Positions 29,110-44,345 of a stretch of 64,000 nt of DNA are shown piece by piece. The notes under the pieces are model-generated. The model did not search any database, was not told where the DNA came from, and was given only the letters and a program-made list of their open reading frames with translations. The position numbers and the translations under genes are program-made. Numbering within the stretch: the first letter of the stretch is position 1; each line of letters opens with the position of its first letter. The stretch covers positions 1,211,501 through 1,275,500 of the forward strand of contig NZ_CP076723.1 in assembly GCF_018986915.1 (NCBI RefSeq). Reading direction: 5' to 3'. The DNA is from Geomonas oryzisoli (lineage in GTDB: Bacteria > Desulfobacterota > Desulfuromonadia > Geobacterales > Geobacteraceae).

Positions 29110-31071
29110 CTAAACGGAACTCTCTACGATTTCGAGAAGCTCCTTAGACTCACCATTAATCCGGAAACGTGCTGCTTTGCCTTTTGCACTTTCAGTCAAA
29201 GTATGGAGGCCCGCTCCGTTCAATTGCATAATGAACGGACCATACTTCAAATCGATCAGTTTTTGTCCACCGCTGCAATTTACAGCTTCGACAATGCCGA
29301 TATAGTCACCATCCAGCAGGGCAATTACTCGTGCCTTTGCTGGGGAAGGAGCCGCTTCTTGCGGTTGCGCTTGACGAGAGGCCTCTTGCTGCGCTTCATG
29401 AAGTTTGCGGATAAGTAACTTCGTGATTTCTGGGTTTCGATTCTGGTTACGATCCAACCTGAGACTTTTAATAACCTTAACTGCGTTGATGCATGCTCTA
29501 TCAAAGCCAGTCTCAAGCGTGGACAGGCTCTCAAGGAATTTCGAATCCTTTTGAATACCTGTTTTCTTGATCCAAGGTGCAATCTGCTTTTTTATCAATA
29601 GCCCTAGATGAAAAATCCAGTTTTTCATTTGTTGATCGCGAGAAAAACGTATTTTAAGTTCACTGATAATATGGCCGCACACAAAGTACAAACCAGGATA
29701 ATCGGTTTCAGAAAAAATTTCACTTGTTTCGTTCTGATTGTACTCTTGAAGAAGGTTGCCGTAGTAATAGTGAACTTTATGAGGTTCCTCCATAGCAACG
29801 GATATGAAACACTTTATGAGTTGCGGTGCGGATATTACCGATCTTTGTGGAATGTCATCGTCGTAGTCAAATTGATGAGGTCGTCTCTCATAGTAGTAGG
29901 AGAATCCTGACGATCTCATAGCATTATAAAAGTCTTCAAGAACTTTGTGATAGGGTCTAATAGTAGCAAATGCTTCTTTTGTTACATGGGATTGACTGTT
30001 GGTAGTGGCTATTATTCTCCCATATAGATCGATGTTGGTAGTTTCTATCAGCTTTACCGTTATATACATCGCATCGCTAAGATCATTTTTTCTTTCATAA
30101 AGAACATGACTTGTTTGACAGCCGTTGACTATCTGGAATCTTGAAAGTTCGAAAGTGTCACCCGATGGGATCACTTTTCCCGCAACGACTGTAACCCCAT
30201 TGTTTAGCACTGCAAATCTGTCACGCTCGTTTGGATCAAGGACTGTTTTCTGTATAGCTGAGTTCACCGGGTTAGATACACCAAGAAAATCTCTAACGTT
30301 CTCAGTGAAAAGTGCTTTATTGAGTTCTCCATTCGGTTTACAAAGCAACCTCACGTAGTCAGAACATCTCGCAACACCTAAATAGGCTGCAGTAGCACCA
30401 GGGATTTGTGGAATTGCAGTATGCCTTTGAAAAGAAAGTTTGCCGTTAATATCATTTTTTGTTGCCCTATACAAAGCAGCGATTCCGTCGCCATCATGTA
30501 TTTCTAAGCCAACATCAGAGAATTTGTACTTTTCAGCCGCGAGCGCAACTCGTTCGTTCTCGATCGCAGCCAGAATATTGCTATCAGTTAGCCGGTTTTG
30601 ACCTGCGTAAGCATAATGCAGATGGACGGACGGCAATTCACGAAGTTTTGCCGACCTCTGATACACCTCTTCCTTGATATCAAAGGCGTTAGCCAATTCA
30701 CCCGGAATTCCAGCCCGCTGATCGGTAAAAAAGGCTCGAACTGTGGCAGTGAATTTTAGATATTCACCTAAGTCAAATGAAGTAGAAGTCTTCGTTTGGA
30801 TGAAATGGAATTCGGCGTTAAATTGCTGACGTGTCAAGGATTTAGCGTCGTCAATTTCATTAACAATTACGCCACCAATGACAACAGCAACACCATCAAC
30901 ACCTGTAGCCTGACCGGTAGCTACTTTATCAAAGTCAAACGAGTCGTAGTAGTCTGTTTTCAAAATACAGTAGTTTACAAACTTCTCAAATCTGTACTCT
31001 TCGGTCTCATCTACCAAATCGAAACGACCTGAAAACTCATTCAGCATTCCCTTAAGGATGATGTTATCCAC
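29110..31071 (-). CDS. AIPR-family (abortive phage infection) protein
   Basis: The protein has 653 residues from GTG 31071, with AGGAGGAGCA in front. The central region carries the AIPR-domain pattern RDRFAVLNNGVTVVAGKV followed by FQIVNGCQTSHVLYE and ATTNSQSHVT. The N-terminus has DGVAVVIGG and FHFIQTKTS, reminiscent of a restriction-like fold. AIPR proteins are found in phage-resistance loci, some beside nucleases; the mechanism is poorly known. It is AT-richer than the chromosome and is the first cargo gene inside attL, a common place for defence genes. Confidence 0.85.
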   Translation of the reverse strand: MDNIILKGMLNEFSGRFDLVDETEEYRFEKFVNYCILKTDYYDSFDFDKVATGQATGVDGVAVVIGGVIVNEIDDAKSLTRQQFNAEFHFIQTKTSTSFDLGEYLKFTATVRAFFTDQRAGIPGELANAFDIKEEVYQRSAKLRELPSVHLHYAYAGQNRLTDSNILAAIENERVALAAEKYKFSDVGLEIHDGDGIAALYRATKNDINGKLSFQRHTAIPQIPGATAAYLGVARCSDYVRLLCKPNGELNKALFTENVRDFLGVSNPVNSAIQKTVLDPNERDRFAVLNNGVTVVAGKVIPSGDTFELSRFQIVNGCQTSHVLYERKNDLSDAMYITVKLIETTNIDLYGRIIATTNSQSHVTKEAFATIRPYHKVLEDFYNAMRSSGFSYYYERRPHQFDYDDDIPQRSVISAPQLIKCFISVAMEEPHKVHYYYGNLLQEYNQNETSEIFSETDYPGLYFVCGHIISELKIRFSRDQQMKNWIFHLGLLIKKQIAPWIKKTGIQKDSKFLESLSTLETGFDRACINAVKVIKSLRLDRNQNRNPEITKLLIRKLHEAQQEASRQAQPQEAAPSPAKARVIALLDGDYIGIVEAVNCSGGQKLIDLKYGPFIMQLNGAGLHTLTESAKGKAARFRINGESKELLEIVESSV

Positions 31072-33229: not shown

Positions 33230-34525
33230 ATGATTCACCCAGGAGAGCTTCAGGTGCAAGATGCCCTTCAGCAGACTGTCATGCTGGAGGGGACCATGGT
33301 CGACAGAAACAAGTACGGAGCGATCCGAGAGCTTGCCCGGCTTGGAACCGCTAAGAAGGAGATCGCCAGGCAGTTGGAGGTGACCGTCAAAACGGTACGT
33401 CGTGCCCTCAAGAAGCCGCAGTGGGAGCCGTACCAGCGACCGAAGCCAACAGACACTGTGCTTTCGCAATTCGATGAATGGGCCACCTCCCGTGCTGAGG
33501 AGGTTAATTTCAACGCTGCCATCTTGTTCCGCGAACTCAAGGAGAAGGGCTACACCGGCGGATACGAGATGGTAAAGCTGTTGGTGCGCCCCCTGCGCGA
33601 GGAGTTCCAGCAGCGAGTGGATGCCGTAATGCGGTTTGAGACCGGTCCCGGAAAGCAGGGGCAGGTGGATTGGGGCAGCGCCCAAGTCTGGCTCGGCGAC
33701 CAAAGAGTCCGCATCCACTTCTTTGCCATGGTCCTCGGCTACTCTCGCAGGCTCTTCGCTCGCGCATACCTTGATGAGCGCCTGCCGACTCTTCTGGCAG
33801 CCCACCAGGAGGCTTTCGCATGGTTTGGTGGCCGCCCTTCAGAACTGCTCTATGACAATCCAAAGACCATCGTTACCGACCATACGGCCAGCGTACTCAC
33901 CCTCAACACAAAGTTCGCCGACTTTGCCGGCCACTTCGGTTTCGATCCACGGCTTTGTCGGCCTCACCGCCCCCAGACCAAGGGGAAAATCGAGTCGGGC
34001 GTGAAGTACATCAAGGGAAACTTCCTGCCCGGGCGCCGTTTCATCGACCTCGACCACCTGAACCGGGAACTGGAAAAGTGGATTGTCGAAGTCGCCGATG
34101 TCCGCATCCATGGGACCACCGGATGCCGTCCCGCCGAGAGATTCTCGGAGGAGAAGCTCATCGACGTCAATTCTGTGCCGCCTTACCGACTGGAGACGGC
34201 CCTCACGCGCAAGGTGGCCAGAGACTGCATGATAACCTTCGGCGCCAACCGTTATTCAGTGCCGTGGCGGTTCGCTGGGCAAACGGTTCAGATTGAGCTG
34301 TGGGGTGACGAGATCCGAATCCTGCAGGGCGAGGAGGTCATCGCCACGCATCAAAAGCTCGTCGGGACCGGCAAACAGCGCATCAATCCGGCTCACTTCC
34401 AGGGACTCTTCACCGACCGGCTGGAAAAGAAAAAAGAAGAGCCGCCGCGCTTCGATCCGTGGTGGAAGGATGAGGAGGTCATGATCCGCGACCTCGACAT
34501 CTACGACCACGTAGCGAACATGTGA
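33230..34525 (+). CDS. istA: IS21-family transposase IstA
   Basis: The 431-residue protein has an N-terminal helix-turn-helix (KYGAIRELARLGTAKKEIAR) and a DDE integrase core. The acidic residues lie in QGQVDWG, LYDNPKTIV and the later RPQTKGKIESGVKYIKG (E). A mu-type beta-barrel follows near the C-terminus. It appears intact. AGGGAGGGG precedes the start. istB follows 11 bp later. Confidence 0.95.
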   Translation: MIHPGELQVQDALQQTVMLEGTMVDRNKYGAIRELARLGTAKKEIARQLEVTVKTVRRALKKPQWEPYQRPKPTDTVLSQFDEWATSRAEEVNFNAAILFRELKEKGYTGGYEMVKLLVRPLREEFQQRVDAVMRFETGPGKQGQVDWGSAQVWLGDQRVRIHFFAMVLGYSRRLFARAYLDERLPTLLAAHQEAFAWFGGRPSELLYDNPKTIVTDHTASVLTLNTKFADFAGHFGFDPRLCRPHRPQTKGKIESGVKYIKGNFLPGRRFIDLDHLNRELEKWIVEVADVRIHGTTGCRPAERFSEEKLIDVNSVPPYRLETALTRKVARDCMITFGANRYSVPWRFAGQTVQIELWGDEIRILQGEEVIATHQKLVGTGKQRINPAHFQGLFTDRLEKKKEEPPRFDPWWKDEEVMIRDLDIYDHVANM

Positions 34526-34536
34526 GGGGGTGACCA

Positions 34537-35307
34537 ATGGAACAGATCACCGACCTCGCTGCATCGCTTCGCCACTTGAAACTCTCCCGCCTCGCCGACC
34601 ACCTGGATAGCTGGCTCCAGGATGCCGCCAAGGGCGAGTGGGGCTATCACGAATTTCTCCAGCGCCTGGTCGAAGAAGAGGTGGCCGCGAAGAAGGACAA
34701 GCGCACCGAGATGGGGACCCGCATGGCACGGCTCCCCTTCATCAAGACGCTCGACTCATTCGACTACACTTATCAGCCGTCGCTCGATCCTAAGCGGATC
34801 AAGGAGCTCTCAGCCTGCCGCTGGGTCGAAAACGGCGAAAATGTAATCTTCCTTGGCCCTCCTGGCGTCGGCAAGACCCACCTCTCGGTCGGCCTTGGAG
34901 TCGAGGCGATCCGCCGTGGCTACCGGACCCTCTTCATCACCGCCCAGGGGCTGATTACCGCACTTGCACGGGCGCACGCGGAGAACCGGCTGGATGACAA
35001 GCTCAAGTTTTACTGCCAGCCTAAACTTTTGATCGTCGACGAGATAGGCTACATCCCCATTGACCGGTTGGGCGCAAATCTTTTCTTCCAGCTCATCTCG
35101 CGCCGGTACGAGAAAGGGGCGATGATCATGACCTCTAACCAGCCCTTTTCAAACTGGGGCGAGGTCTTCGGCGACCAGGTCATCGCCAGCGCCATTCTGG
35201 ACCGGGTGCTGCACCACGCGATCTCTGTCAGCATCAAGGGCGAAAGCTACCGCCTCAAGGAGAAGCTCAAGGCCGGACTGCTGGCTAAACACATCGAGCA
35301 GTCATAA
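34537..35307 (+). CDS. istB: IS21-family transposition helper ATPase IstB
   Basis: The 256-residue AAA+ ATPase has Walker A FLGPPGVGKTHL, Walker B LLIVDEIGYIPID and sensor MTSNQPFSNWGEVFGD. It assists IstA in target selection. GAGGGGG precedes the start. Full length for the family. Confidence 0.96.
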   Translation: MEQITDLAASLRHLKLSRLADHLDSWLQDAAKGEWGYHEFLQRLVEEEVAAKKDKRTEMGTRMARLPFIKTLDSFDYTYQPSLDPKRIKELSACRWVENGENVIFLGPPGVGKTHLSVGLGVEAIRRGYRTLFITAQGLITALARAHAENRLDDKLKFYCQPKLLIVDEIGYIPIDRLGANLFFQLISRRYEKGAMIMTSNQPFSNWGEVFGDQVIASAILDRVLHHAISVSIKGESYRLKEKLKAGLLAKHIEQS

Positions 35308-35364: not shown

Positions 35365-35900
35365 CCCAAGCTGACGCGTGACCCGGAGAGTGGTTTGCCC
35401 GTCGAGACGCACCGCGCCGGCAACGACTGCACCTTCTCCGCTCCCCAAGTCGGTATCCATCGCCTATGCCGCAGGGGTGGGCCAGGTCCGGGAGGCACAC
35501 GACGCGGCGGTGCGCTCGGTCCTGTCGCACATGGAGGAGCATTATTGCCATTACCGCAGCCCCGAAGGGATCAGGTGCGGTGGCATGGCAAGTTCGACCA
35601 CGCCAGCTGCCCATTGCAACTGGACGCCAGCAGTGCCCGTCGACAGGTTCGAAAACCGGAATCCGGCTTCTAAATTTGCCCTGCAGAGGGTGAACGGCGA
35701 GCCACCCAGGGTAGTGGTTGCGGGCGAAAAGATTCGCATCAAAAAAAAGAGGGGGGCGCAGGTGGTACTCCCAGGGGACGAGGCGACTTCGGGCCCGAGG
35801 CAGGCGGAACGTCTTCTTGACGTGGCAGAGGAGCTGCGGCACAGGGGGCCTCCAGGTGAAGGCTGGCCCTGTTGGAGGTGTCGAAACAGGCGGTGTATTT
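35365..35900 (+). pseudogene. MobF relaxase remnant, collapsed downstream part
   Basis: After the IS21 end the sequence reads KLTRDPESGLPVETHRAGND then CTFSAP, the TrwC relaxase motif, followed by frame changes (AYAAGVGQVREAHDAAV in another frame). From about 35648 it jumps to helicase-region pieces, NPASKFALQRVNGEPP and RQAERLLDVAEELRHRG, that match 39512-39720 in the second copy. The active gene is clearly lost, with internal deletion and several frameshifts. Confidence 0.75.
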
Positions 35901-35931
35901 AGGAGAACACCCTGTTCTCAACGGTGAGGAG

Positions 35932-37395
35932 TTAACCAGCTTTCTTCAGCATAATTTCCTTATTTATTTTTGCTACATTGCAAAAAAAATCATTGACTAC
36001 TAATGGATTTCCGGAAGGATGTTCGTTTGCATTCCTAACCATACACATAGTACAGTACTCCTTTTCAGAGCATTCCATACATTTAGGGAAATCTCTTTTT
36101 CGCAATCCTCTTAGATATTGTACATTTCTCGAATTGTTCCAAATATCTTTAAGGGATTCTTTATCTACATTTCCGACAACATAGCCCTGCCAACCAGCAC
36201 ATGGGTATACGTTTCCGTTGTCTGATATACAAATTGAGGAATGACATACGCTACAAACAATATCATTAGGCGTAATATTCTTTTTATCTTCGGCTTCCTT
36301 TTCCAGTAGTTCCAAATATCCTGGTTCATCCGCAATTTTGCCGTTAATCACCTGCTCGATATCATTAAATGACAGACGACTCCTAAGGTTATCGGTCGTA
36401 TTGTCACATCCAGCTATTAATACATAATCGTATGTGACATGAAAATTATGCTCTTTGGCCCATTTCAATACATCTTTATAACTGTTCTTATTTTCTTCAA
36501 TTATTGGACAGCTGATTTGCAGCGGGATATCATTTTCTTTAAGCCTCAAAATGGCATTTATAGTTAGATCCAAACTTCCTTTTGTCTGTGTTATTGCATC
36601 ATGAATTTCGGGGTCCATAGAGTATAAAGACACTTGAACCCCCAGAAGTGAATTACTTTTCATCTCTTCCACGATTTCATCTGTTAACAATGTTAGGTTA
36701 CTAAGAACGTTCACAGACAAGTTATATTCTTTGCATTTTTTTAAAAAATCAACAAAGTTATGGTGCAGCATTGGTTCGCCACCTGTTAGCGTTAAATGCA
36801 ACACCTTCATTTCTTTGCACTGTTCTAAAATATTAAAAAACAAGTCAGTCTTGATATGACCTAATTTGTCATCATGTGGAATGTAGCAATGCACGCATCT
36901 TTCATTGCACATGCTAGTGATTTCTATTTGCAAATTTGTCAATCGAGGTTCGTCTTTGAAATATTCATTCAAAAAATCTTGTGTGGATTTACTAACATCT
37001 TTGGTAGCAGGGTAACAAGAGGCGATATCGTTTATTGGTGACAAGTTTTTATAGGAAAATCTAAAGTCATTTTTATCACATTCTTGCAATATATCTCCAG
37101 ACACAATAAAACCATCTTGTTCGAGTATGCTAAAAAACTCTACTGTATCACTCTTTATTGTTTCAATATCAACGTCACTAAACTGCTTGTGTATTTTATT
37201 TACAATTGAGTCGAGCTTTTGTGCTTTTTCACCTAAAGCTGACAGAAAAATTGCCCCACTCTGAGAGACAATCTTATCTCCAATGTCACTCCCCTGGTTG
37301 TCAGCTTTTGTATACCCAAAATTCCTATTGTCGGTAATATAACCAAAAGCCCCATAATTTCTGAATATGACGTTTGATTTTCGTTTAAAATACAT
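35932..37395 (-). CDS. Radical SAM/SPASM peptide maturase with N-terminal PqqD-like domain
   Basis: The protein has 487 residues from ATG 37395 (GGAG 10 nt before); the frame open to 37548 runs over the precursor gene. Residues about 1-105 look like a PqqD/RRE leader-binding domain (YGAFGYITDN, then IVSQSGAIFLSALGEKA and a helical tail ending LEQDGFIVSG). The radical SAM core has C163-x3-C167-x2-C170 (CNERCVHCY) and LTLTGGEP. The C-terminal SPASM region has CSVCHSSICIS, YPCAGWQG and CMECSEKEYCTMC for auxiliary clusters. It is AT-rich and the precursor gene lies just upstream. Reaction unknown; thioether or C-C crosslinking are options. Confidence 0.88.
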   Translation of the reverse strand: MYFKRKSNVIFRNYGAFGYITDNRNFGYTKADNQGSDIGDKIVSQSGAIFLSALGEKAQKLDSIVNKIHKQFSDVDIETIKSDTVEFFSILEQDGFIVSGDILQECDKNDFRFSYKNLSPINDIASCYPATKDVSKSTQDFLNEYFKDEPRLTNLQIEITSMCNERCVHCYIPHDDKLGHIKTDLFFNILEQCKEMKVLHLTLTGGEPMLHHNFVDFLKKCKEYNLSVNVLSNLTLLTDEIVEEMKSNSLLGVQVSLYSMDPEIHDAITQTKGSLDLTINAILRLKENDIPLQISCPIIEENKNSYKDVLKWAKEHNFHVTYDYVLIAGCDNTTDNLRSRLSFNDIEQVINGKIADEPGYLELLEKEAEDKKNITPNDIVCSVCHSSICISDNGNVYPCAGWQGYVVGNVDKESLKDIWNNSRNVQYLRGLRKRDFPKCMECSEKEYCTMCMVRNANEHPSGNPLVVNDFFCNVAKINKEIMLKKAG

Positions 37396-37418
37396 TGAAA
37401 TTTTCTCCGCAAAACATG

Positions 37419-37451
37419 GGCGACGATGCCATAGTGTATGGCACCGTCGCC
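37419..37451 (-). promoter_or_regulatory. 15-bp hairpin between precursor and maturase genes
   Basis: In the transcript GGCGACGGTGCCATA pairs with TATGGCATCGTCGCC around CAC, with a single G-U pair. It is 17 bp after the precursor stop and 24 bp before the maturase start. With a weak T-run (GTTTT) after it, it may act as a partial terminator or mRNA-stabilising hairpin that makes more precursor than enzyme. Confidence 0.75.
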
Positions 37452-37468
37452 TTTGGCCAAACTTTGAA

Positions 37469-37585
37469 TTAGCGGCCGCCGGGCCCCGGTTTGTTACAAG
37501 GTCTTCCACTCGGCTTACTGTTCGGCCTGCATTCTGCCATTCGCACAATATCTTGTGCTAAGATTTCAGGTCTTTGATATCCCAT
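37469..37585 (-). CDS. Candidate RiPP precursor peptide, 38 residues, two cysteines
   Basis: The small gene has a perfect AAGGAGGTGG ribosome-binding site 5 nt before ATG 37585. The leader-like N-terminal half is MGYQRPEILAQDIVRMAE and the core-like half holds Cys19 and Cys30 in CRPNSKPSGRPC, then NKPGPGGR to the end. Two related halves are visible, each starting at a cysteine and ending in Gly-Arg, rich in Pro, Lys and Asn. It stands just upstream of the radical SAM/SPASM gene on the same strand, as precursor genes do. The role is an inference from position, composition and the strong ribosome-binding site. Confidence 0.8.
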   Translation of the reverse strand: MGYQRPEILAQDIVRMAECRPNSKPSGRPCNKPGPGGR

Positions 37586-37614
37586 TTTTTCCACCTCCTT
37601 CCATGGTTATTATT

Positions 37615-37654
37615 ACTTTTGCTGTAAAATAGCAAAAGTTCGCATGATGCCCAA
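37615..37654 (-). promoter_or_regulatory. Candidate promoter and operator of the precursor-maturase operon
   Basis: On the minus strand TTGGGC, a 17-bp spacer and TATTTT form a sigma70-like promoter. A perfect inverted repeat, ACTTTTGCT and AGCAAAAGT around 7 bp (37615-37639), overlaps the -10 and could be a repressor operator. Confidence 0.45.
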
Positions 37655-37659
37655 TTGCC

Positions 37660-38190
37660 ACGATTCCGATGCCGATTCCCCTACTCTGAATAACTTAGGC
37701 ACTGCATTGCCAGGAATTCTGGCGGTGCATCGTCGTGTCGGTTCTCAGTTCTCGAAGATGCTCATTTAGAGCTAATTAGTCAAGGGTCGCCCCGAGGCAC
37801 ATTAATTTCCGTACTAATGGAAAGTTTTTTTATTTCCCATTTTTAAGTTATATGGCGTAGTGAGTGGGTTAAATGGATTGGAAAAATTAAGCCTTTTATA
37901 GGTGGATTTAGTGTCAGCGGCTCAATAATCGAGTCCCCTTACTCCGCCAATTAACAGGCAGCCCCTTGCCCAATATTAGCCGAAAATAATAGCAACCAGA
38001 GCGCGGTACGGCTTGAACCAGGACCTGAAGGGGGTGTTTAAGGAATTTGGAATCGTATAATCACGAGCCAGCCCCAGATCGATTAAAATGGCCTCTCTGC
38101 CGTACTCGACAAGGCCCAGCCGCAGGGTCCTAGACAGCACCTAGGGTAAGCACAGGCCCCCCCTTCACGAAGCTATGCCGAAAGTGGAGA
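37660..38190. other. Stretch without a recognisable gene, between the peptide system and relaxase remnant
   Basis: No open frame with codon bias or ribosome-binding site is visible on either strand. Base composition is mixed, AT-rich near 37800-37880 and GC-richer beyond 38000. Confidence 0.5.
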
Positions 38191-38195
38191 TAATC

Positions 38196-39897
38196 ATGAT
38201 GACCCTACGCCGAGGGATGACTGCTGTACACGCGAGACGTTATTTCTCCAGGGAGGACTACTACCTCGGGGGGCCGATGAGCCGGGATGCAGCCTGTGGT
38301 ACGGGAAAGGGTCAAGGTGCTGGGACTCACCGGTCCGGTTGGATACGAAGAATTCCGCGCCCTGTGCAAAGGGCGACGCGCCTGACGGTGGACAGCTGGT
38401 TGCGGCGGGGCATGGTCGTGATCCGAAGACATCGGAGTTCATGGAGGTACGGCGGGCGGGGAACGATACCACGTTCTCGGCCCCCAAGTCGATTTCCATC
38501 GCCTACGTCGCCGCGGTCGAGGGGGTGAAGGAAGCCCACGACGCGGCGGTGCTTTCGGTGCTCGATCATATGGAGCGACACTACTGCCACTACCGGCACG
38601 CAAAGAGAACCCATCCGGGGGGGATGGTGGCGGCCACATTCGACCACGCCGCCTTGCGCAGCATACACCTGCAACTCCTCTCGAACATCTTCCTGGCGAA
38701 CGCGGTTAAGACCCCACGGGAGCTTCAGAACCAACGCAACCGACCTGCTGTTCGAGGACCAGAAACTGCTCGGCCGTCTGTAGCGGCAGGCGCTCTCACA
38801 TGAACTCACGGAGCGCGGGTTCCAGGTGACGGTGAAGGACCGCTCGGAGATGTACATCGAGCTGAAGGAAATCGACCCCGCGCGCTGATAGACCATTTCT
38901 GCAACAGGCGAAAGCCGATCGACGATCAGGTGGAGAAATGGCAGGCAAAAGGGCTCTTTGCCGGGTTTCCCCATGCCCGGCTATACGAGATGTCGGCGTT
39001 GGAGACCAGGGACCCGAAGGGCTCAATCACGAAGGAGGAGTTAACCCGTTACTTTGAGAGGGGCTTCGAGGCCTGCGGCACCTAGTTTGTTCAGGTGAGG
39101 CGGGATCTGGAACGGTGCAGGGAACTTTCCATCTCCCGCACCTCTCCCGATACCCCGCACGTGGTAGAGCTTGCGGTCCGGGATATCACCGAGGACGAGG
39201 CGGCTCGCGCGCGCCCCCCCGAGGTCGACGCGTACCTGGAGCGTTGGCAGGAGAGAGAGGGCGTCCGGCTGACGGCCGGACAGAAAGCCGAGGTTCACCT
39301 GGAACTGACCGGGAGCCGGGGCGTCGCCCTCACCATCGGGGACCCGGGAACCGCCAAGACATCCACCCTGGAGATCGTGGAAAGGTTCAACGAGGAGGTA
39401 TTGCGTCCCGAGGGGAGGGAACATCTTTCCGTCAACCTCTCCTATACCGGAAAGGCGGCCCGTGAGTTGTCCCTTGCCACCGGGAGGCCCCTCACCCTCA
39501 ACAGTTTCGAAAACGGGAATCCGGCTTCCAAATTTGCCCTGCAGAGGGCGAACCGCGAGCCGCCCATGCTAATGGTCGCGGTGAAAAGATTCTCATCCCA
39601 GAGGGGCGGAAAGCACAGGTAGTGCTCCGGGTGGACGAGGCGGGCTTTCTCGGGGCGAGGCAGGCGGAGCGTCTGCTCGATGTTGCCGATGAGCTGCGGC
39701 AAAGGGGCGTCCGGGTAAAGCTGCACCTCCTGGGAGACTCGAAGCAGATGCAGGGTATCCAGGCGGGAAACCTCGCGCCACTCTGCAAAGGCCTGGACCC
39801 ACGGGAAGGTCGACAGGGCGCACCAGTTCCGACGTCCTACAGCACAGAACCACGGGGGCTCCTAAAGATCACACGCGAGTTGACCGTGGTGACCTAG
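38196..39897 (+). pseudogene. MobF (TrwC/TraI) relaxase-helicase, second decayed copy
   Basis: Pieces in different frames follow the TrwC order: MTAVHARRYFSREDYYLGG, KVLGLTGPVGYEEFRALCKG, RAGNDTTFSAPKSISIAYVA and HDAAVLSVLDHMERHYCHYR. Next come VTVKDRSEMYIELKEIDP, DQVEKWQAKGLFAGF, then the helicase Walker A region VALTIGDPGTAKTSTLEIVE. Finally RVDEAGFLGARQAERLLDVA gives Walker B. Stops at 38801, 38886 and 39082 and several frameshifts break it. The stretch is host-like in GC. Confidence 0.82.
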
Positions 39898-40649: not shown

Positions 40650-41321
40650 TTACTGTTCCAAAAGCTTCCGGGCCAGCGCGTGCAGTTCCGCGTTGGCAAG
40701 GGCCAGCACCTTCTTTTTGACCGACCGGGAGTAGTACTCCTGCTCCGTTTTGGTCATGGGAAGCCCCTCCAGTTTCCGCCTGAAGAGGTCTGTCTGTTTA
40801 GGCGAGAATACTTGGGAGAGCGCGAATGCGAGGGAGAATTCGTCGTACCTTTCCTTCCTGCGCCGGGTGCGTTCCGCATTCTGTTCCACGTACAGTTCGA
40901 AATTTTTCTTCAGGCGCTCCGGCGAAAATTCCGCTCCCTCCCAGGTGACCGGCTGGCCCGATTCGAGGTCTTTGCGCCACGCTTTAACCTGCTCTTTCTC
41001 TTTCGGGGGCAGTTCCTTTTTGTACTTCGCGGCCCACGTGAACTCCAGGTGGTAAAGCGCGTAGAGGGAGAGCGACAGGAGGCAGAGCCGGTTCAGATTG
41101 TGGCGGTCCCGCTCTTCCGGCAGGCGCTGCCGGACCTTTTCGAAGCTGAAGCGGTAGTCTTCGGAGGCATTCGCCAAAAGCACCGGGAACAGTTCCCAGA
41201 GCCGTCCGTCGCCGTTTTTCACCACCTCGGCCACCGTTTCGTTCACGTCCAGCGCCTCGTCCGGCTCGAACATCGGCAGGCCGAGCCTGGACAGGCTTTT
41301 CATCAGTTCCCGGTTATCCAT
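40650..41321 (-). CDS. Helical protein of unknown function paired with a nucleotidyltransferase
   Basis: The 223-residue protein is rich in Lys, Glu and Arg with long helices (for example KKNFELYVEQNAERTRRRKE). Its ATG overlaps the nucleotidyltransferase stop (ATGGATAA arrangement), so the two are translationally coupled. I recognise no domain. Two-gene units with an AbiEii-like nucleotidyltransferase are often toxin-antitoxin or phage-defence modules, which is the likely setting. Confidence 0.7.
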   Translation of the reverse strand: MDNRELMKSLSRLGLPMFEPDEALDVNETVAEVVKNGDGRLWELFPVLLANASEDYRFSFEKVRQRLPEERDRHNLNRLCLLSLSLYALYHLEFTWAAKYKKELPPKEKEQVKAWRKDLESGQPVTWEGAEFSPERLKKNFELYVEQNAERTRRRKERYDEFSLAFALSQVFSPKQTDLFRRKLEGLPMTKTEQEYYSRSVKKKVLALANAELHALARKLLEQ

Positions 41322-41901
41322 GAAGTCCCTTTTCCCTGAGCAGATCCACGAAATGCTCGATGTGCGGTCTAAGCCTTGCCTCGGAGATGTCGTACAGGAT
41401 CATCTCCTGAAAATGCGCCACCAAATGGTCGACGTCGATCTCCGAGATCTTCGCTTCGGCAAGCATCAGGCAGTCGTCGAAGTCCACCCTGGTGCCCCGC
41501 ATCAGCTTGCTGCAGATGAGGTCGTAGTAGTTGAGGATGCCGAGGTACAGGTGCGAATACTCGCGCAGGAGGTAATGCCTTCCTTCCTCCAGCGGCGAGG
41601 CGAGGAGCCCCGTGGTGTGGATGTTCGTTCCCGGGAAGAGGTCGAACTGGAAGATCTCTCCCTGGCGCTGCCACCCCGATTGGGTTACCCTCTGGTACCC
41701 CATCTGCTCCAGGTTCCGGGTGAGGTAGGCGTGCTCCTTCAAGACTGGCACCACGAAGTCGACGTCCTTGGTCGAGGCCTTGATGTCTAAAAGCGTGAGG
41801 GCGGTGCCGCCGCAGGCGATCAGGTGCACCCGGCGCTTCAGGCGCCGGTTCCACTCTTCCAGAACCTCAAAGAGCTGCTCTTTTCCGAGTCGATATTCCA
41901 T
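41314..41901 (-). CDS. AbiEii/DUF6036-like nucleotidyltransferase
   Basis: The protein has 195 residues from ATG 41901 (AAAGGA ribosome-binding site). The nucleotidyltransferase signature is HLIACGGTALTLLDIKASTK followed by DVDFVV, that is GG-x9-x-K-xT-x-DVDF, typical of the AbiEii/DUF6036 group. Then FQFDLFPG supplies the third acidic residue. These proteins are enzymes or antitoxin/toxin parts of two-gene modules in mobile DNA. Upstream ATACAA/TTGTAT boxes suggest self-regulation. Confidence 0.8.
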   Translation of the reverse strand: MEYRLGKEQLFEVLEEWNRRLKRRVHLIACGGTALTLLDIKASTKDVDFVVPVLKEHAYLTRNLEQMGYQRVTQSGWQRQGEIFQFDLFPGTNIHTTGLLASPLEEGRHYLLREYSHLYLGILNYYDLICSKLMRGTRVDFDDCLMLAEAKISEIDVDHLVAHFQEMILYDISEARLRPHIEHFVDLLREKGLHG

Positions 41902-41904
41902 ATT

Positions 41905-41980
41905 GTATCCTTTGATACAAAATCTTGTACACATCAATACAAGATAATGTACATATTAATACAAATAATTTACATGTTCA
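41905..41980 (-). promoter_or_regulatory. Repeated TTGTAT / TGTACA boxes upstream of the nucleotidyltransferase
   Basis: The 75 bp before the gene contain at least four copies of (A)TACAA or its complement TTGTAT, and two TGTACA-like palindromes (TTGTACACA, TGTACAT), spaced roughly 12-20 bp apart. The region is very AT-rich. It looks like an operator with several half-sites plus promoter. Confidence 0.5.
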
Positions 41981-42602: not shown

Positions 42603-43820
42603 CTAGGCCTCTCTTTTGAACGGAAGCACCTTCGCTCCCGCCTTAAGGCCGTCTAGGTAATCCGCCCAGGTCTGCATCATTTTGCGCCGCTCGGCTAGGT
42701 GGGCCGTGCGGTTGTAGGCGCGACCGTTGGGGTCGCGCAGCGCGTGGGCCAGTTGCTGCTCGATGTAATCCGCCCGGATCTGCAGCACCTCGTCCAGGAT
42801 GGTCCGCGCCATGGCCCTGAAGCCGTGGCCGGTCATCACGTCCCCGTCATACCCCATTCTTCTCAGGGCGGCGTTGACGGTGTTCTCGGACATACAGCGG
42901 TCGAAGGATCTCCCGGAGGGGAACAGGTAGCGGCTGGTGCCGGAGTAAGGCTGCAGTTCCTTCAGGATGTCCAGCGCCTGGGTGGCGAGCGGGACGATGT
43001 GGGGTGCCTTGGTCTTCATGCGCTGCGCCGGGATGTTCCACTGTTCCGCTTCAAAATCGATCTCGGACCATTCCGCCTGTCTCAACTCGCCGGGGCGCAC
43101 GAAGACGAGCGGCGCGAGTCGCAGGGCGCACCTCACCACGAAACCGCCCTGGTAGGCGTCGAGGTCGCGCAATAGCGGTGCCACTTCCTTGGGTTCGGTG
43201 ATGGCGGCATGGTTGCGCCCCTTGGCCGGGGGGATGGCCCCTTTAAGGTCGGCGGCGACGTCGCGCTTCGCCCTCCCCGTGGCGATGGCGTACCGAAACA
43301 CTTGGCCGCAGATCGTCTTGACCCGGTGCGTCGTTTCCAGGGCACCCCGCGCCTCGATCCGGCGCAGCACCGCCAGGAGTTCCGGTGCCTCGATCTCCCC
43401 GATGGGGGTTCCACCGAGCCAGGGAAATACGTTTTGTTCCAGGCGGGCCAGGATGGTCTGCGCGTGCCCCTCGGTCCAGGTCGGCTTGAACCGCTCCCAC
43501 CACTCCCGGGCCACGATCTCGAAGCTGTTCGCCGCCCGCTGTTCCCGGGCAGACTTCTGCGCCCGGCGGGCCGCTCCGGGATCAACGCCGTTCCGCAACT
43601 CCTTGCGCGCCGCCCGCATCAGGTCGCGCGCCTCGGCGAGCGGTACCTGCGGGTAGGTCCCGAGGGCCAGCACCTTTTCCTTCCCTTCGAAGCGGTATTT
43701 GAGCCGCCAGTATTTCCCGCCGCCGGGATTGATCAGGAGGTACATCCCCTCGCTGTCCGAAAGCTTGATCGGCTTCGCTCCCGGCTTGGTATTTCGTATC
43801 TTTACGTCCGTCAGTGCCAC
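42603..43820 (-). CDS. P4-type tyrosine recombinase (integrase)
   Basis: The protein has 405 residues from GTG 43820, which has GGAGG at proper spacing; GTG 43832 overlaps that site. The N-terminal DUF4102 arm-binding domain begins MALTDVKIRNTKPGAKPIKL with GMYLLINPGGGKYWRLKY. Catalytic motifs are the arginine in RPGELRQAEW, HGFR in MTGHGFRAMART, and the QLAHALRDPNGRAYNR segment with the tyrosine. It lies beside ssrA at the attR end, so it should catalyse integration and excision of this element. It looks intact. Confidence 0.95.
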   Translation of the reverse strand: MALTDVKIRNTKPGAKPIKLSDSEGMYLLINPGGGKYWRLKYRFEGKEKVLALGTYPQVPLAEARDLMRAARKELRNGVDPGAARRAQKSAREQRAANSFEIVAREWWERFKPTWTEGHAQTILARLEQNVFPWLGGTPIGEIEAPELLAVLRRIEARGALETTHRVKTICGQVFRYAIATGRAKRDVAADLKGAIPPAKGRNHAAITEPKEVAPLLRDLDAYQGGFVVRCALRLAPLVFVRPGELRQAEWSEIDFEAEQWNIPAQRMKTKAPHIVPLATQALDILKELQPYSGTSRYLFPSGRSFDRCMSENTVNAALRRMGYDGDVMTGHGFRAMARTILDEVLQIRADYIEQQLAHALRDPNGRAYNRTAHLAERRKMMQTWADYLDGLKAGAKVLPFKREA

Positions 43821-43872
43821 GGCAACCTCCACGTGGGGGTATCAGATTTGTTTTGGGGGTACATTTCGCTTC

Positions 43873-43993: not shown

Positions 43994-44013
43994 TGGTGGA
44001 GGTGGCGGGAATC
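43994..44013. repeat. attR, 3' end of ssrA
   Basis: Identical to 28779-28798. Here it continues into the T-arm-like part of tmRNA (GAACCCGCGTCC on the plus strand). Confidence 0.9.
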
Positions 44014-44345
44014 GAACCCGCGTCCGAGAATCGTACACATAAGGCGTCTACATGCTTGTACCTGTTTTTAAGTTTAGCCCCTCAAGGCTCCACAGGGCGG
44101 GATACTTGAGTCGCGATTCCGCTTGATTTCGCCGCAGGGCCACGGACTCTCCCTGAAACTATCCCACTGAATGACGTTCTATCCTTCCACGTGGGAGATG
44201 GTAGGTAGAACGTTAGCAGGTTATTAAGCTGCTAAAGCGTATTCGTAGTTGTCGGCGCTTAATGCGTCCCGGATTGTTTAACGAGCCACCCGGACCTCGG
44301 CATGCAACCTTAGCTTCTTACCCCCGTCGAAACCTTTACACCCCC
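43994..44345 (-). ncRNA. ssrA: Transfer-messenger RNA (tmRNA)
   Basis: About 352 nt. The 5' end reads GGGGGTGTAAAGGTTTCGAC and the 3' end TTCGATTCCCGCCACCTCCA then CCA, pairing as the alanyl acceptor arm. The tag reading frame gives ADNYEYALAA then TAA, a typical proteolysis tag. It rescues stalled ribosomes with SmpB, encoded about 340 bp upstream on the same strand. Its 3' end is the att site of the element to the left. Confidence 0.97.

Follow-up and report, generated by a model that had tools for sequence, protein, structure and literature searches.

The locus examined here raises the question of why a gene of only 38 codons should stand directly in front of a gene for a radical SAM enzyme, and what the two might make together. 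The pair is real and conserved, and very probably consists of a RiPP precursor and its maturase. The best reading of the sequences is that they represent a new family of RRE-dependent radical-SAM RiPPs with cysteine-centred chemistry. The analysis goes beyond the preliminary description in finding a core that is near-invariant across phyla, a mobile cassette, a common hairpin and a wider family with other cores. In what follows, the window is the whole stretch of 64,000 nucleotides that was analysed, and the cassette is the two-gene pair.

The two genes and the hairpin between them

The precursor gene (37469..37585, minus strand), recognised as an open reading frame of 38 codons, encodes MGYQRPEILAQDIVRMAECRPNSKPSGRPCNKPGPGGR. 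Its Shine-Dalgarno sequence in the window, AAGGAGGTG (37592..37600, minus strand), is strong as read from the sequence, with the ATG six bases further on. Just 5' of this ribosome-binding site, at 37615-37639 on the minus strand, there is a 9-base inverted repeat, ACTTTTGCT...AGCAAAAGT. The maturase gene (35932..37395, minus strand) follows after 73 bases and encodes 487 amino acids. The open reading frames and the Pfam matches confirm the preliminary description of a tiny gene, with a Shine-Dalgarno sequence, directly upstream of a 487-residue radical SAM/SPASM gene.

The maturase has a PqqD-like (RRE) domain (residues 45-97; 37105..37263, minus strand), a radical SAM domain (residues 157-313; 36457..36927, minus strand; PF04055, 5.1e-23) containing CNERCVHC, in which the motif is C163-x3-C167-x2-C170, and a SPASM domain (residues 381-442; 36070..36255, minus strand; PF13186, 9.8e-10). 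The PqqD match (PF05402, 2.6e-5) scores 24.9 bits, the cut-off being 23.4, which bears out at the sequence level the suggestion that the N-terminus of the enzyme is of PqqD type. The same model is above its cut-off for the maturases of the window, L016 and L053, just below it for L019, and not listed for L014. In nine maturase sequences C381, C389, G394, C399, C439, C442, C448, C451 and C472 are invariant, C389 being an extra cysteine beside the SPASM cysteines C381, C399, C439, C442, C448, C451 and C472. The invariant SPASM cysteines fit two auxiliary clusters. Among NCBIfam models 67 match the window maturase, and the best 25 of these are all far under their curated cut-offs, the top match being heme b synthase with 109.3 bits of 500.

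Between the precursor and maturase genes lies a 15-bp, terminator-like hairpin (37419..37451, minus strand), whose T-run is poor in the window; the hairpins of E. coli and Photobacterium have a T-run behind them. The stretch singled out by the preliminary description begins at 37419 and also takes in this hairpin, which is absent from its text. All seven aligned loci have the same 3' arm, TCGTCGC; the 5' arm matches it and varies mostly through G-T pairs, and 94% of 84 alignment cells pair. The covariation score was reached by only 2 of 500 shuffles, and the number of pairs with changes on both sides was within that of the shuffles (63/500). Peptide and maturase genes stand 70-81 bases apart at 10 of the 11 loci measured, and 266 bases apart in L019. 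An Rfam search of 35800-38200 returned nothing at E 0.1, and a promoter scan of the window found none; a sigma-70-like site lies 5' of the peptide in the E. coli and Photobacterium loci, such matches being equally frequent in shuffled sequence. We infer that the hairpin is a partial terminator, to the advantage of the precursor.

Conservation of the peptide

The peptide can be divided into a probable leader half, residues 1-18 (37532..37585, minus strand), containing Y3-x-x-P6-x-I8, and a core half, residues 19-38 (37472..37531, minus strand), CRPNSKPSGRPCNKPGPGGR. A division into a leader-like half and a half with Cys19 and Cys30 had been suggested at the outset. Tyr3, Pro6 and Cys19 are invariant in all 24 distinct aligned peptides, and Cys30 is present in 23 of the 24, the exception in this alignment being L067. 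In a smaller, earlier alignment of 16 peptides all four residues are invariant. The last position of the leader motif [Y/W]xxPx[L/V/I/A/F/Y] fits 18 of the 24 peptides, and threonine occupies it in six sister peptides (L018, L057, L058, L059, L061 and L062). Throughout the cores of the 24 peptides only the two cysteines are kept (or nearly so), with N22, K24 and R28 fixed only inside the PNSKPSGRPC subfamily, and none of the eight tabulated cores has an acidic or aromatic residue or an isoleucine, leucine, valine or methionine. What the peptides conserve is a YxxP leader of RRE type and a pair of cysteines in the core.

No Pfam or NCBIfam model matches the peptides above cut-off. Ribosomal protein S17 and DUF1639 were considered as the family of the window's peptide, and DUF5972 as that of the L053 peptide, and were rejected as weak matches below cut-off. 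Literature searches by core strings or locus accessions found nothing on the cassette, and topical searches, in the portions of the papers that they returned, gave none that we recognised as dealing with this family of peptide and maturase. The peptide gene is absent from the gene lists of all seven plasmid records that carry it, the PLSDB gene table being incomplete.

The core CxPNSKPSGRPC is identical in Bacillota, Gammaproteobacteria and the window's host, with diverged synonymous sites. Between the E. coli (L010) and Photobacterium (L009) peptides there are 17 synonymous changes and no amino-acid change; the 20 core residues of L014 and L010 are the same throughout, at a pS of 0.84; and for the cores of the window and L010 pS is 0.92 and pN 0.09, all by simple Nei-Gojobori counts. 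Residue 20 of the peptide varies in this subfamily, being R, K or T. The 38-codon frame is thus kept as protein in independent loci while synonymous sites have changed, and therefore the open reading frame is more than a chance one; codon conservation, on which the preliminary description had made its reading depend, is present. The precursor gene is under purifying selection at the codon level.

RiPPs usually keep the leader and vary the core. In the PNSKPSGRPC subfamily the core is the fixed part, and the leader drifts, which suggests that the cassette makes one fixed modified peptide. Carried by mobile elements, the fixed core is seen in the window's host as well as in at least two named phyla (Bacillota and Pseudomonadota), and conservation of this kind is expected of a product that has a conserved partner in every host. 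If so, the target should be findable.

In a tree of 26 maturases, all loci with a GRPC-type core, the window among them, together with L051 fall into a single group of 13 rows, with support of 100/100. The PNSKPSGRPC loci do not make up a clade of their own (three changes on the maturase tree), and all core-type labels taken jointly need 5 changes, against a mean of 11.8 for shuffled labels. The nearest maturases by tree are from Bacillota records, namely Peptococcaceae L015 (74% identity) and Clostridiales L014.

Distribution and mobility

Full-length tblastn matches to the window maturase, at 50-51% identity, were found on seven plasmids, from Photobacterium damselae, Salmonella and five E. 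coli, with 20 further plasmid records matching more weakly. The full-length peptide is present in those seven of 72,556 records, the five other peptide matches having E of 2 or more. Genome and viral collections contributed L014-L019 and L053, and sampled genome searches contributed L029 (the same as L033 and L051), L030 (L034) and L031 (L035), as well as L055-L063, L065-L068, L077 and L078. The pair is rare: the sampled searches, seed genomes included, found it in 2/246, 3/398, 1/25, 1/199 and 3/340 genomes, and searches with a wider profile gave 3/250 and 11/149, the latter being genomes with maturase relatives in the phylum of L018. A single genome among 97 related ones has the maturase, as has a single one among 247 from the phylum; in each case it is the window's own. 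No near match to the E. coli cassette was found among 5,426 E. coli genomes. Phage records gave no peptide match at E 1 and only 7 partial matches to the maturase (22-35% identity). In IMG/VR a core-pattern search returned only the contig already known, the L017 maturase has no relative, and the L053 maturase finds only itself.

The preliminary description had proposed to look for a conserved short gene upstream of homologous maturases. Such a gene is intact at 27 of 31 loci (the window, L009-L019, L034, L053, L055-L063, L065, L067, L068 and L077), of which L010-L013 are near copies; this count leaves out the weak relatives L020 and L021, the other radical SAM genes of the window's own genome (L002-L008), and the weaker plasmid and phage matches. 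L034 has an intact peptide beside a maturase interrupted by a transposase gene. As to the exceptions, the upstream peptide of L066 is frameshifted over two frames; L051 has an intact maturase and no peptide in the 614 bases to the contig end, where there is an IS3-like remnant; L035 holds only the 3' part of the enzyme gene; and the enzyme of L078 is a distant one, encoded where its contig begins. Most upstream peptides were located by a pattern for a beginning with YxxP. For L055, L065 and L068, and for the frameshifted peptide of L066, short open reading frames with a ribosome-binding site were listed at a later stage and read through, so that the choice at these loci involved judgement.

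The cassettes are carried by a Tn3-family transposon, conjugative plasmids, an apparently circular contig, a contig from a viral collection and, in the window, a low-GC insert. The E. coli cassette (L010) is part of a 6.1-kb unit bounded by inverted repeats of 49 bases, which also contains a recombinase and an annotated transposase of the Tn3 family. On the 3' side of this cassette the recombinase gene recurs as a second, diverged fragment (L010 5289-5599 and 7609-7918, 75-83% alike), which hints at the way in which the passenger came into the transposon. In Photobacterium (L009), 55-base inverted repeats surround a resolvase-family gene and the cassette; no long inverted repeats were found around L011, L014, L015, L016, L019 and L051. 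The L015 contig (1-5520) has an exact end overlap of 162 bases, as for a circle of about 5.4 kb, and is possibly a small plasmid; besides the cassette it carries a PDC-S21/DUF4917 defence candidate. L053 adjoins two integrase-looking genes, read by eye, and L016 lies among apparently ordinary chromosomal genes of Pectobacterium.

In the window, the G+C content of the cassette is 37% as against 57% for the window. The cassette is flanked by relaxase-like gene fragments (35443-35847 and 38482-39707) that are diverged repeats, 74-86% alike, and look like the separated remains of a decayed conjugative element; the relaxase identity is our own reading, Pfam giving only a weak AAA_30 match there. 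An IS21-type pair lies at 33230-35307, and a tyrosine integrase (42603-43832) adjoins a tmRNA gene (43994-44345). We take the cassette of the window to have been acquired by horizontal transfer. The overall picture is of a rare and mobile pair, whose peptides finish in a nearly identical stretch of 20 residues even in distant bacteria. It is worth adding that at 40650-41937 (minus strand) a gene for a DUF6036 nucleotidyltransferase-like protein (41314-41937) overlaps a gene for a protein of 223 amino acids without a Pfam match, possibly a toxin-antitoxin-like pair.

The likely product, its rivals and known systems

The genes, their domains, the leader motif, the conserved cysteines, selection and mobility can all be read in the DNA, and on them the following scheme may be built. 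The 38-residue precursor would be made by the ribosome, and its YxxP leader held by the PqqD-like RRE domain at the N-terminus of the radical SAM/SPASM enzyme, which would then use two auxiliary clusters and a 5'-deoxyadenosyl radical to modify the 20-residue core. Most likely the Cys19 and Cys30 thiols would be joined to carbons of nearby residues as thioethers, as in sactipeptides or ranthipeptides. The hairpin probably ends most transcripts after the precursor, leaving more substrate than enzyme. The product would be one fixed, cationic peptide rich in proline and glycine, and because no exporter, protease or immunity gene is recognised in the cassette, it would act inside the cell or use the export and proteolysis of its host. 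Mobile elements would carry the pair as a passenger from one phylum to another. The cassette has just two genes in 1.7 kb and is found naturally on plasmids of E. coli, and laboratory strains of that species would serve at once to produce and test it.

Thioethers, which are suggested by the pattern of conservation, have about an even chance of being right. That the two cysteines are the only (nearly) constant core residues in the 24 aligned peptides argues for them, and against a cassette of the same RiPP type that carries out epimerisation, backbone cleavage or a crosslink through arginine, lysine or asparagine, with the cysteines serving as a disulfide or as metal ligands. This second possibility is the less probable of the two but deserves serious weight: SPASM enzymes perform varied chemistry, and the C-x(n)-C-x2-C layout of most sister cores could bind metal. 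Aryl crosslinks, as in aromatic cyclophane or streptide-like RiPPs, were rejected because the eight tabulated cores have no aromatic residue. A more radical departure would be to regard the short frame as a regulatory arrest peptide, and the hairpin as an attenuator controlling the maturase. Frame and hairpin do precede the enzyme gene at the spacing given above (70-81 nt in 10 of 11 loci), proline runs can stall ribosomes, and most members have an NPPxP stretch in the C-terminal half. Sister cores, however, differ in sequence and yet keep the leader motif and the cysteines, and the enzyme carries a domain of leader-binding type and belongs to a class that modifies peptides, which makes an arrest peptide very improbable.

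What a modified peptide might do is a separate matter. Many characterised radical-SAM sactipeptides are antibacterial, which favours an exported bacteriocin or signal; however, as had been remarked at the outset for transporters and proteases, neither these nor an immunity gene is recognised in the two-gene cassette, and the core is cationic, lacks isoleucine, leucine, valine and methionine, and is undiversified within the subfamily, so that we consider this role rather doubtful. An anti-phage or plasmid-competition effector of defence islands seems a little less probable still. At a threshold of 1e-40 or better, PADLOC matches lie near 6 of 10 cassette loci, on 8 of 110 proteins: AbiU in the window, NsnA (L014), PDC-S21 (L015), PDC-S42 (L019), PDC-S05 (L034) and SngABC (L051). 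None was found near L009, L010, L012 and L016, setting aside three DrmD matches that could not be assigned to a protein and were left out of the counts. Ten integrase islands from five host genomes served as control, and showed five defence families with one member each, on 3-5 of 147 proteins, some perhaps the same protein; the reading frames of both cassette loci and control islands were collected mechanically and include spurious ones. The difference between 8/110 and 3-5/147 is not significant (one-sided p 0.04-0.13, or 0.12-0.30 when Sng is counted once), and by locus 6/10 against an assumed 2-5/10 gives p 0.08-0.50; the defence neighbours are a lead and no more. The neighbour in the window is an AIPR/AbiU-like abortive-infection protein (29110-31071, minus strand; PADLOC AbiU 6.9e-105, Pfam AIPR 2.5e-41), at a distance of some 5 kb. 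Lanthipeptide clusters have been described as lying together with defence genes (PMC12715929). A specific form of such a role, which we put forward only as a long shot, is a mobile 'chemical defence' peptide, whose cationic, hydrophobe-free Pro/Gly/Arg core, stiffened by the enzyme, would bind intracellular DNA and hinder incoming phage or plasmid DNA. It is prompted by the fixed KPSGRP of the core, which we take to resemble the GRP centre of the AT-hooks that bind the DNA minor groove, and by the genome contigs L017 and L066, where the peptide with a shortened [SC]GRPC core belongs to an operon with the maturase, a UvrA-like ATPase and a second radical SAM enzyme, in that order (UvrA domains were tested in L017 only, the second locus being read by eye). 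Genes like uvrA have served as markers in mining for DNA-intercalating products (PMC10413001). The same gene order is seen in L017 (466-5528) and L069 (1938-6912), with a GRPC-like peptide, frameshifted in L069, before the maturase, the UvrA-like ATPase and the second radical SAM enzyme.

The preferred reading, a RiPP precursor with an RRE-dependent radical SAM maturase, can finally be set beside known systems. Like the sactipeptides made by enzymes of the AlbA, SkfB and StsB type, the cassette combines a radical SAM and SPASM enzyme with a short cysteine-bearing precursor, and the AlbA, StsB and SkfB models match the window maturase at 4.6e-22, 4.1e-21 and 7.3e-20, all below cut-off (78.1 of 850, 75.4 of 625 and 71.1 of 300 bits). 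Unlike them, it has no recognised exporter or immunity gene, and its core is invariant in the subfamily. The ranthipeptides (PapB type) likewise have a radical SAM/SPASM maturase of cysteine-bearing peptides, the PapB model matching at 3.1e-17 and below cut-off (62.8 of 340 bits). PapB joins cysteine to aspartate or glutamate (PMC9413430), whereas the core of the cassette has no acidic residue. The leader motif [Y/W]xxPx[L/V/I/A/F/Y] is bound by lasso-type RREs and present also in PQQ precursors (PMC13381572; PMC12710340), so that the precursor resembles those of lasso peptides, PQQ and LPP (PMC13381572). In contrast to those systems, the RRE of the cassette is fused to the radical SAM enzyme, and no macrolactam cyclase or leader peptidase is recognised beside it.

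A further comparison is with the sister peptides, from Synergistota and others, which share the YxxP leader, a homologous maturase and a cysteine core with that of the window, but have a core of the form C-x(n)-C-x2-C with a variable loop. In 8 of 12 such loci (L018, L055, L057 and L059-L063) there is a downstream gene that looks amidohydrolase-like by its sequence; L056 has only 90 bases of downstream sequence. What sets the cassette apart is that, with no recognised export or immunity genes, it carries a fixed core on mobile DNA.
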